Source of the DNA: Phyllobacterium myrsinacearum
GTDB taxonomy: Bacteria; Pseudomonadota; Alphaproteobacteria; Rhizobiales; Rhizobiaceae
Length of the DNA: 64,000 nucleotides
Assembly (NCBI RefSeq): GCF_014138285.1
Contig: NZ_JACGXN010000015.1
Span: 1-64,000 of the forward strand
Direction of reading: 5' to 3'
A program made the position numbers and the translations under genes. The notes under the pieces were generated by a model. That model made no database searches, was not told where the DNA came from, and worked only from the letters and a program-made list of their open reading frames with translations. How positions within the stretch are numbered: the stretch's first letter is position 1; every line of letters starts with the position of its first letter. This document shows positions 32,408 to 35,722 of the stretch, in pieces.

Positions 32408-32574
32408 TGTTCTCTTATAGCGGACTATGCGGCGGCAATGAAGGCATTGCAGATGTTATTGTTCTGTTTCATCGAACATAGGTTGCAACGAAGCTGTCTT
32501 TATAGAGGAGCCGGGAGCGCAGATATTCACTCCAACGGCGCATGAGCGCCAAGCAACCAGTTCAGGAGGCTTCC

Positions 32575-33528
32575 ATGTCTTTACAATTGACCGGTATTCA
32601 TCATTTGACCGCCATTACGGCGAACGCACCGGAAAACCTGCGGTTCTATACCCAGACCCTTGGCCTGAGGCTCGTCAAAAAGACAGTCAATCAGGATGAT
32701 ACCAGTGCCTATCACCTCTTTTACGCCGACGGCGAAGCAACGCCGGGGACGGACCTGACGTTCTTTGACTGGCCTGTCGGTCCGGAACGGCGCGGTACGC
32801 ACAGTATTTCGCGCACGGGTTTGCGCGTTGGCAGCAAGGGCAGCCTCGCCTGGTGGAAAGCACGCTTTGATGAACTCGGCGTCAAGTCAGATGACGTCAC
32901 CGAAATCGGTGGCCGTGACGCGCTCGATTTCGAGGACGGCGAAGGCCAGCGGTTCCGTTTGATCAATGACGGCGGGGCGGCACCGTCGCATCCGTGGGAG
33001 AAAAGCCCCGTTCCAGCCGAACACCAGATCAGAGGTCTTGGTCCGATCACGATCAGCGTGCCTGACATCACCAACACGGAGGCCATTCTTCTGCATGTGA
33101 TGAACATGCGGCAGACCAGCACCTATCCATCTCCAGACGGTGCGGGTCATGTCCACGTCTTCTCCATGGGTGAGGGTGGCCCTGCTGCTGAATTGCATGT
33201 CGCGGCCCAGCCAGACCTTCCCGTGGCCCGTCAAGGTGCGGGCGCCGTACATCACGTGGCGTTCCGGGCGCCGGATGTGCAGCAACTGCATGAATGGACA
33301 GAAAGGCTGAAAGGCTTCCGCATGCCATCCAGCGGCGAGGTCGAGCGTTACTACTTCCGCTCGCTTTATTTCCGCGAACCCAATGGTATTCTGTTCGAGA
33401 TTGCCACGGATGGCCCGGGCTTCACTGTGGATGAACCTCTGGAAACGCTGGGTGAGGGATTGTCCTTGCCGCCGTTCCTCGAGGGAAAGCGGGCTTCCAT
33501 CGAGGCCAACCTGAAGCCTCTGGTCTGA
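32575..33528 (+). CDS. Ring-cleaving dioxygenase, VOC superfamily (MhqO-like)
   Basis: 317 aa, two glyoxalase/VOC modules. [20 protein letters not shown] starts the first; the second carries [18 protein letters not shown] and [18 protein letters not shown], with metal-ligand His and Glu. MhqO-type enzymes take part in resistance to hydroquinones and related electrophiles. ATG 32575 has AGGAGG five bases upstream, a near-perfect ribosome site, so the 11 codons further upstream are not used. Divergent from the LysR regulator. Confidence 0.9.
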
Positions 33529-33575: not shown

Positions 33576-35141
33576 TCAGGCCTCTTGATCAAGAGTAGCT
33601 GCAATCCACTGCCGCACGGCGTCAATATCATGCTGGCCGGTTTCATGGCCGGCATGAACACGCTCAACGGTGAGGTCCGCCCCGGATTGCTGCAGCAACG
33701 CTTCCAGATCCGGCGCCTGCGCACCGAACAGATCGTGTTCGCCGTTCACCATCAGAATGCGTGCATCGCTCAAATCAACGCGAGGCGTTTCTTCGAGAAC
33801 ATTCATGGCACGCAGAAGCACCGCGTTCCTGATTGCGCCTGGATGCAGCAGCATGGTTGCAACCAGCATATTGGCGCCATTGGAATAACCCAGAAATACG
33901 GTACGTTGCAGATCGAGATGGTAGGCCTCGACTGCACCCTCGATGAACCCCGCGAGAGCATCGGCTTCCGCGCGGATGTCCTGCTGGTCAAAGCTCAACG
34001 GTCCGAAGCGGCGGAACCAGCGGCCGATACCCTCCTCGGTGCTGCGGCCGCGCAGGCCAATAAGAGTCGCGAGCGCAGCGGCATTGGCGGCAAGTGGCAG
34101 CAGCATGGTCTCATTGCCGTCGGAGCCATGCAAAAGCACAAGAGTCAGGTCACCGGCTTGATCGGGTGTGTAGACACGATGCACGAATGGCAGCTCGCGG
34201 TAGATGAACCTGTCCTCGCCGGGCAGGCCGAACTGCGGCAGCATCACCTTGAGGTTTTCAGTTTCTTCGGCAAAATGCGGCGGAATGAACAGTTTTGTGC
34301 CGAGCGTTTCCGGCGGCTCGTCAATCAGCATGCCGGGCCCGTCCGTTGCCATCTCAAACAACGTGCCGCCGGGCTCCCGCACATAGATGGAATAAAAGTA
34401 CTTGCGGTCATGCATAGCTGTTGCGTCCGACCCGTCCTTGACCAGGCGGTCATATGTCTTTTGGATGCGGGCGATGTCGGGCGCGCGGAAGGCGATGTGA
34501 TCGATCGTTCCCGTCCCGGGTGCCGAACTCCAGAAGCCGGTGGCATCTCGCACGTCGACACAATCGCCCGACGCTGAAACCATTCGGACAATGGTGTCGG
34601 TACGCTCGCCGACGCTGTAACCGAAATAGCTTTCCAGAAATGTGCAGGTGGCCTGCGGCTGTTCGGTGAGGACGGTAGCGCCGCGAATGCGTTGGATGGC
34701 GTCAGCCCCGGAAATGCCATCGCCGGTCCAGGGCGCAGCATTCTTCACCGCCGATGTTCCGACAAGTTTGACGATAACGCCATCCGGATCTTTCAGGCGC
34801 AGGACCGGTTCACCGAATTCCTGTGCGGGGCCGGTCGTGGCAACATTGTGCTGAAGTGCCCGGGTCAGCCAGAAGCCGATGGCTTCGGGCGTAATGGCAA
34901 GCGAGATTTCACTAGGCTGGCCATACCCGACCCGGCCAAGTGATCCGTCTTCCCAGACGAGAAAGGTGATCAGGGAGCCGGGGGTTGCCGCGGCGTCACC
35001 GTAGAAGAGGTGCAGCTGGGTCGCATCTTCATAGCCGCCTGTACGCTTGACAAGGCGAAGGCCGAGAAAGCCGACATAAAAGTCCACGTTCGCCTGAACG
35101 TTGCGTGTGATCAGGGTGATGTGATGGATGCCGCTTGCCAT
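33576..35141 (-). CDS. VOC dioxygenase (MhqO-like) fused to alpha/beta hydrolase (MhqD-like)
   Basis: 521 aa, a fusion. Residues 1 to about 312 are a two-module ring-cleaving dioxygenase homologous to the neighbour (SGIHHITLITRNVQANVDFY; DHIAFRAPDIARIQKTYDRL; REPGGTLFEMATDGPGM). Residues about 325-521 are a phospholipase/carboxylesterase-type hydrolase with LVLLHGSDGNE, nucleophile GYSNG, acid Asp in VNGEHDLFG and His in HAGHETGQHD. In Bacillus the two activities are separate genes, mhqO and mhqD. ATG 35141 follows GGAGGAACTTC. All catalytic residues seem present in both halves. Two related dioxygenases stand side by side, suggesting duplication. Confidence 0.9.
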   Translation of the reverse strand: MASGIHHITLITRNVQANVDFYVGFLGLRLVKRTGGYEDATQLHLFYGDAAATPGSLITFLVWEDGSLGRVGYGQPSEISLAITPEAIGFWLTRALQHNVATTGPAQEFGEPVLRLKDPDGVIVKLVGTSAVKNAAPWTGDGISGADAIQRIRGATVLTEQPQATCTFLESYFGYSVGERTDTIVRMVSASGDCVDVRDATGFWSSAPGTGTIDHIAFRAPDIARIQKTYDRLVKDGSDATAMHDRKYFYSIYVREPGGTLFEMATDGPGMLIDEPPETLGTKLFIPPHFAEETENLKVMLPQFGLPGEDRFIYRELPFVHRVYTPDQAGDLTLVLLHGSDGNETMLLPLAANAAALATLIGLRGRSTEEGIGRWFRRFGPLSFDQQDIRAEADALAGFIEGAVEAYHLDLQRTVFLGYSNGANMLVATMLLHPGAIRNAVLLRAMNVLEETPRVDLSDARILMVNGEHDLFGAQAPDLEALLQQSGADLTVERVHAGHETGQHDIDAVRQWIAATLDQEA

Positions 35142-35249: not shown

Positions 35250-35366
35250 AAAAAACAACACCCACCGCGGGAGGAGGTGCGGTGGGTGCTATTTGTAAAG
35301 GCCGACTGGGAGGAGGAGTGCCGGCCTTTGAACGTTCGGAACCTGGGAGGAGGTCATCCCGAACGC
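35250..35366 (-). ncRNA. Triple CCTCCTCCC hairpin array (cuckoo / CcsR-type small RNAs)
   Basis: On the minus strand, right after the DUF1127 stop, three stem-loops follow in tandem: 35365-35333, 35329-35297 and 35288-35259. Stems are 7-10 bp and unrelated in sequence, but each loop contains exactly CCTCCTCCC (35353-35345, 35316-35308, 35277-35269), an anti-Shine-Dalgarno sequence. The last stem runs into TGTTGTTTTTTC, an intrinsic terminator. Conserved CCUCCUCCC hairpins downstream of a DUF1127 gene are the definition of the cuckoo/CcsR family known from Rhodobacter. They are probably processed from the DUF1127 transcript and act in stress responses by binding GA-rich targets. Confidence 0.88.
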
Positions 35367-35381
35367 TAACTCTAAATTCTA

Positions 35382-35531
35382 TTAGCGCGCAGCTGCGGCC
35401 TTCTTGGCAACGAAGGCGATATCGCCACGGGAGATGCCGAGGTCGTTCAGTTCACGTGCGGACAGGCGGTTCAGTTCTGTGACAGTGTCACGATAACGGC
35501 GCCAGTTATTGTAAGAGCGGATCAGATTCAT
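35382..35531 (-). CDS. DUF1127 small protein (CcaF1-like)
   Basis: 49 aa: MNLIRSYNNWRRYRDTVTEL, then SARELNDLGISRGDIAFV and a basic Ala-rich tail. This is the complete DUF1127 (YjiS-like) domain. A good AAGGTGAG ribosome site lies before the ATG. In alphaproteobacteria such arginine-rich proteins can bind RNA, and the gene serves as the host transcript for downstream cuckoo RNAs, as it appears to here. Confidence 0.92.
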   Translation of the reverse strand: MNLIRSYNNWRRYRDTVTELNRLSARELNDLGISRGDIAFVAKKAAAAR

Positions 35532-35722
35532 TTCACTCACCTTGGTAACTTCTTGTTTGTTGGATCATTTCTTGATCGTGAGCTGCATATAGTCGATGCC
35601 CGGCAAAACTTGCAGTGACAAGAATGCATAGCTGCTTTGCAGGAAGTGAGGAGTGGATGGCTAAATTGGGGCAGGTGGAATCACGTCAATTGTGCCCCCT
35701 ATAGGCCCGCTAAAGGCGTGGC

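Follow-up and report, generated by a model that had tools for sequence, protein, structure and literature searches.

The cuckoo RNA family and the CIN1 locus reportedly go back to Reinkensmeier and Giegerich in 2015. Within the alpha-r14 family of small RNAs, the founding member is NfeR1 (Smr14C2, SmelC397) of Sinorhizobium meliloti, an RNA with three redundant anti-Shine-Dalgarno loops that is activated by LsrB, repressed by NtrC and silences ntrBC (PMC10746234). The NfeR1 loops are described as silencing mRNAs via direct pairing at the ribosome-binding site, and reporter assays showed a loop-dependent repression of ntrB (PMC10746234). The reported range of alpha-r14 comprises Rhizobiaceae, Brucellaceae and Phyllobacteriaceae, and northern blots of S. 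meliloti reliably revealed only one of six nfeR1 copies (PMC7143759). Two further S. meliloti RNAs, SmelA075 and SmelA099, carry three and four such hairpins, respectively, and have been likened to Rhodobacter RS0680a (PMC3927594); Hfq binds smelA075 (PMC5928592), whereas NfeR1 has been called Hfq-independent (PMC10746234). In Rhodobacter, the DUF1127 protein CcaF1 binds RNA and participates with RNase E in CcsR processing, and the same source summarizes the CIN1 locus as a short DUF1127 gene plus cuckoo/CcsR-like RNAs (PMC10253847).

Small DUF1127 genes have also been described as targets of the regulator VtlR, which activates three of them and abcR2 (PMC12595884), as well as abcR1, vrsA and atu1667, the last of which possibly acts as a protein or as an RNA (PMC7486931). 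In Agrobacterium, small DUF1127 proteins act on PhoR (PMC12501420). LsrB/VtlR control, DUF1127 proteins and cuckoo RNAs are each separately in print, and no publication joining the three was found in a limited literature search.

A DUF1127 gene followed by an alpha-r14 RNA

The window, i.e. the whole 64-kb stretch of DNA analysed here, carries on its minus strand a DUF1127 gene of 49 codons plus stop (35531-35382), with its ATG at 35531 and its TAA at 35384-35382. The encoded protein belongs to the DUF1127 family (Pfam PF06568), which it matched, in a 52-residue reading from GTG 35540, with 59.1 bits against a cut-off of 23.3 (E 3.5e-16). Proteins 100% identical to it were found in Phyllobacterium sp. 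OV277 and P. myrsinacearum, which makes Phyllobacterium the most likely source of the window, and the assembly (5.97 Mb, 40 contigs) contained 12 DUF1127 matches. On the same strand, and 10 nt beyond the DUF1127 stop, lies an RNA with predicted ends at 35371 and 35253 that matched the Rfam family alpha-r14 (RF02344) over its full length (model positions 1-123 of 123). This match, which answers the covariance-model search of the minus strand proposed by an earlier, sequence-only reading of the locus, scored 98.6 bits against a gathering threshold of 58.8, and besides it, only two tRNAs in the 64 kb reached the gathering threshold of an Rfam family. The RNA is a member of alpha-r14 both by this score and by its three CCUCCUCCC-loop hairpins with variable stems.

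The sequence-only reading had named the locus a cuckoo/CcsR one. Its cuckoo-type character was borne out, since the short DUF1127 gene is directly followed on the same strand by a cuckoo-type RNA, as in the CIN1 locus according to its second-hand definition (PMC10253847 summary). The CcsR identity was rejected, given that CcsR1 (RF02791) scored 26.2 bits where 65.3 are required; among studied RNAs, NfeR1/alpha-r14 of rhizobia is the closest. When CcsR1 was searched class-wide, 17 of 289 genomes (own genome included) had matches, none of them over the cut-off, and so did one of 14 control genomes. Among the 17 of 20 CcsR1 loci examined, 11 had no copy of the 9-mer CCTCCTCCC, so that many matches are probably due to chance; a DUF1127-like ORF, as recognized by a crude pattern, was present in three.

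The 119 nt of the RNA folded into three hairpins with an energy of -58.3 kcal/mol, which none of 200 shuffles reached (z -7.61), at 35367-35331, 35329-35297 and 35294-35253. Together with the ORF and the PF06568 match, this fold confirmed the earlier description of a 49-codon DUF1127 gene followed by three tandem hairpins on the same strand, although the hairpins cover 115 nt (35367-35253) instead of the 107 bp initially given. The 9-mer CCTCCTCCC occurred three times in the 64 kb when both strands were searched, always inside the hairpin array (35353-35345, 35316-35308 and 35277-35269), against a mean of 0.47 in shuffled sequences, one of 100 of which reached three copies. It was one of three 9-mers with three copies within 110 nt on the minus strand of the window, and dinucleotide shuffles of the 119 nt contained some 9-mer at least three times in 15 of 20,000 cases. 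The claim that every loop displays the same 9-mer held as regards the three copies, but not as regards their exposure: the first three bases of motif 1 are paired in the window copy (unpaired probability 0.06-0.16), and hence all nine bases are exposed only in loops 2 and 3. The calculated pairing energy of the 9-mer was -18.1 kcal/mol with its perfect complement and -9.9 kcal/mol with AAGGAGGT.

The array is followed by a run of six T, read directly from the sequence at 35255-35250, as the sequence-only reading had noticed, and hairpin 3 with this T run is likely an intrinsic terminator. A terminator scan passed over hairpin 3, whose loop of 10 is above the limit of 8 that the scan allows, and listed a different terminator-like site immediately past it (35250-35236).

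Conservation of loops, stems and gene order

The own assembly contained five alpha-r14 matches, and all 20 genomes of the genus (own genome included) contained between four and seven, 102 in total. At least 40 of these 102 copies have a DUF1127 domain 5' of them on their own strand, every one of the 20 genomes contributing at least two, a count that used 84 entries among the DUF1127 matches listed and that copies with a weak DUF1127 domain could escape. The spacing between the DUF1127 domain and alpha-r14 was 37-49 nt in 39 of the at least 40 linked copies and 310 nt in one, the latter (locus L115 of genome G019, C5:2833638-2834174) perhaps reflecting an insertion. Of the remaining three copies of the own genome, L003 and L004 have no adjoining DUF1127 gene and L005 (C1:754802-754917, minus strand) stands directly 3' of a phasin gene (Pfam Phasin_2, E 7e-17) and is followed by a tRNA gene; its loops 2 and 3 are shortened to TCCTCCC and a TCCTCCC-like form. 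At the family level, 194 of the 199 genomes had an alpha-r14 match, as did 105 of the 109 genera; the match was over the cut-off in 184 genomes, and none of 14 control genomes had one; four of the five genomes that lack it are of 2.0 Mb or less. The presence of an alpha-r14 element in this genome was therefore to be expected.

The loops proved to be conserved in related genomes, as the sequence-only reading had anticipated. Among the DUF1127 relatives listed by the search (at least 80 loci), 74 of 80 carried CCTCCTCCC in the 400 nt that follow the gene on its own strand, for a total of 233 copies and with three or more at 47 loci; many of these 80 loci are near relatives, and the independent events are accordingly fewer. 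No copy was present upstream of DUF1127 on either strand or at 600-1000 nt downstream in the 80 relatives listed, and the opposite strand held one. Five of the six listed relatives without CCTCCTCCC keep short forms such as TCCTCCC or CCCTCCC, and one keeps nothing. Within 600 nt, three copies were counted at 20 of the 80 listed loci, four at 12 and six at 11, the six-copy loci belonging mostly to Mesorhizobium. When motif copies were folded with a 16-nt flank per side, 230 of 231 placed at least six motif bases in a hairpin loop, compared with 52 of 237 control segments, and all nine bases were unpaired in 222 of the 231.

An alignment within the genus was built from the window copy (L002) and 28 of 33 oriented loci, with L003, L004, L005 and L121 left outside as other copy types. 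Three motif-loop hairpins were predicted in all 29 sequences, of which 26 keep three exact 9-mers and three keep two, and the first motif is partly paired in five, the window copy included. Standard pairs made up 95.3% of the pair cells in these 29 sequences (28 distinct), and 13 of 35 stem pairs had changed on both sides in a compensatory manner, whereas control structures slid by 1-3 columns gave 38-57% standard cells and 1-3 pairs changed on both sides. The two groups of paralogues could not be aligned perfectly in hairpin 1, where 19 of the 28 distinct rows leave one pair unpaired, and the inner pairs of this hairpin were left out of the compensation count. Taken with the location of the motif in the loops, these counts demonstrate that the loops are kept while the stems change with compensation, in agreement with the initial proposal. 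In Candidatus Phyllobacterium onerii IY22 (L020), the three hairpins are retained and all three motifs read TCCTCCC, perhaps the motif core or a sign of relaxed selection.

The neighbouring dioxygenase-hydrolase gene, which had been taken as a hint of a stress setting, lost this meaning in the comparison. It was present at 14 of 14 window-type loci, some of which may share a species so that the number of species is below 14, and at 0 of 94 other loci (108 searched); it consequently lies outside the conserved module and offers little clue to function. The gene (33576-35141, minus strand) encodes a fused protein with two glyoxalase/dioxygenase-type stretches and an MhqD-like carboxylesterase C-terminal part, the score of the latter (105 bits) staying below the cut-off of 325. 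A second dioxygenase-type gene adjoins it (32542-33528, plus strand).

The upstream region and candidate targets

Upstream of the DUF1127 gene, three blocks are conserved in 14 aligned upstream regions: TGCA[AT][AT]GC[AT]GCTATGCA (35641-35625), CTATAT (35592-35587) and the stretch preceding the ATG. The alignment comprised 14 of 15 intended rows, with locus L120, for which no start codon was located, staying outside; L120 does have the box. In the window, the first block is the near-palindrome TGCAAAGCAGCTATGCA (35641-35625, minus strand), a putative LsrB/VtlR-like box. The second, invariant in 14 of 14 regions, is a putative -10 hexamer that matches the alphaproteobacterial promoter core CTTGAC-N17-CTATAT (PMC8844928), and a weak candidate -35, CTGCAA (35615-35610), precedes it with a spacer of 17. 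The window sequence CAAAGCAGCTATGCA, 108 nt 5' of the ATG, differs from the VtlR box CAATGCAGCCATGCA given in PMC12595884 at two of 15 positions, so that by sequence match the promoter contains the box of the LsrB/VtlR regulon.

The published box was likewise found in front of most DUF1127 relatives. With up to three mismatches in the 300 nt upstream, it was present at 58 of the 80 listed genes against 0 of 80 for the reversed box, and with up to four mismatches at 74 of the 80 against four; the best match lay on the coding strand at 78 of the 80. For the alpha-r14 copies of the own genome, the published box alone (up to three mismatches within 400 nt) recovered two of five. A looser consensus from the genus alignment, searched through the whole genome with up to two mismatches, gave 15 hits at 13 places (two of them listed on both strands) against four in the control, and placed a box upstream of four of the five copies, a result that is partly circular, chiefly for the window copy, as the consensus was drawn from that alignment. 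No LsrB/VtlR-like box was seen at the L005 copy behind the phasin gene.

A candidate for the cognate regulator, by synteny only, is a 298-aa LysR protein whose gene sits between trxB and an ar15/AbcR RNA, the trxB/AbcR setting being the described neighbourhood of vtlR (PMC7486931). None of the best 25 of 56 NCBIfam models for this protein was above its cut-off. In another family of the class, locus L169 has a DUF1127-like ORF with a CcsR-like array 3' of it and shows a VtlR-like box with two mismatches (seven for the reversed control), on the opposite strand and 222 nt upstream; at a second such locus, L162, the box has four mismatches against five reversed. Judging from these sequences, LsrB/VtlR-type control might extend past Rhizobiales.

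Targeting of ntrB as in S. meliloti was not evident. The gene was named from its syntenic neighbours, a DusB-type gene and an NtrC-like ORF; the NCBIfam model that fitted it best (nitrogen regulation protein NR(II)) scored 194.6, under the cut-off of 240. No GGAGG was present 5' of the ntrB start, and the pairing energy of the 9-mer with it (-4.4 kcal/mol) was equalled or beaten by 32 of the 52 ORF starts of the window. Perfect 9-nt targets 5' of an ATG numbered six against two in the control, too few for naming targets.

A two-output operon, its alternatives and its relatives

The locus is largely ordinary, and the fresh lead it offers is the LsrB/VtlR-like box at DUF1127-linked copies. We consider it probable that a single LsrB/VtlR-driven transcript yields both a DUF1127 protein and an alpha-r14 anti-Shine-Dalgarno RNA, which would make this a two-output operon. 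According to this model, the LysR-type regulator LsrB/VtlR would activate a transcript with a predicted start near 35580 that runs through to about 35250, codes for the DUF1127 protein of 49 residues and, towards its 3' end, includes the alpha-r14/cuckoo RNA of about 119 nt. RNase cleavage would then free the RNA, with hairpin 3 as its end, and the CCUCCUCCC loops would pair with GGAGG-type Shine-Dalgarno sequences of mRNAs, thereby blocking translation. Loop silencing and LsrB control as known for NfeR1, VtlR control of DUF1127 genes and the processing of CcsR from a DUF1127 transcript may, by analogy, apply here; since just one of six nfeR1 copies has been reliably seen in S. meliloti, the window copy may be silent. 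Against the operon model stand the published box at two of five copies, the pairing with ntrB, which is no better than with ordinary ORF starts, the few perfect targets, and a weak minus-strand promoter-like site where the DUF1127 gene begins (35536-35508).

That site could point to a promoter of the RNA's own, in or just before the DUF1127 gene, with adjacency being an inherited neighbourhood only, and NfeR1 of S. meliloti has its own promoter (PMC10746234), while solo copies (L003 and L004) exist in this genome. We regard this as unlikely, because the site scores 9 of 12 against a chance expectation of 0.3 such sites, the gap between stop codon and RNA is 10 nt, the conserved promoter block precedes the DUF1127 gene, and the spacing stays at 37-49 nt in all but one of the at least 40 linked copies. 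Nor do we give much credence to a terminator or stability element of the DUF1127 mRNA without effect on other mRNAs, a role that would suit the very stable hairpin 3 with its six T and the position of the array directly 3' of the stop codon. A terminator does not require a given loop sequence; here, however, the loops are fixed, the stems vary with compensation and the same array is also found without DUF1127, all of which render this role highly improbable.

Several identical sites per RNA, several RNAs per genome and the RNA binding of CcaF1 (PMC10253847) would be in line with a sponge that, as suggested in the sequence-only reading, uses its loops to titrate GA-rich RNAs or a protein instead of silencing mRNAs one by one. 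Titration is nevertheless not the leading mechanism, given that NfeR1 loops silence mRNAs by direct pairing, with a loop-dependent repression of ntrB in reporters (PMC10746234), and we hold it to be improbable. Finally, although CCTCCTCCC is a simple string, a chance C/T run is refuted by conservation and, against the Rfam score, the motif counts, the downstream conservation, the fold z, the compensation and the loop placement, its likelihood is negligible.

If the operon model is extended beyond this locus, we lean slightly towards the view that VtlR/LsrB-activated DUF1127 genes of Rhizobiales are protein-plus-RNA operons and that the one activator also drives solo alpha-r14 copies and AbcR. 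Were this true, the RNA would do part of what vtlR/lsrB studies credit to small proteins or leave unexplained, and deletion or overexpression of a DUF1127 gene including its 3' part would alter an RNA regulator too, which affects the reading of mutant phenotypes. One testable operon could bring together the published lines of work on LsrB/VtlR control, on small DUF1127 proteins and on cuckoo RNAs.

Among the known systems, the CcaF1-CcsR1-4 operon of Rhodobacter sphaeroides (RF02791) shares with the window locus a DUF1127 gene followed by CCUCCUCCC hairpins; CcaF1, however, has 71 residues against 49 here, and its operon is driven by RpoHI/RpoHII promoters, in contrast to the LsrB/VtlR-like box of the window. 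SmelA075 and SmelA099 resemble the window RNA in their CCUCCUCCC hairpins and multiple copies, although DUF1127 goes unmentioned in the main text describing them (PMC3927594). The DUF1127 genes that VtlR activates in Brucella, and atu1667 of Agrobacterium, are similar in their LysR regulator and box according to their published descriptions, in which they figure as small proteins. NfeR1 is described with its own promoter and targets ntrB, whereas the window copy lies 3' of a DUF1127 gene and shows no evident pairing with ntrB. With NfeR1/alpha-r14 it has in common the three CCUCCUCCC hairpins, the variable stems, the several copies per genome and the LsrB-type box upstream.
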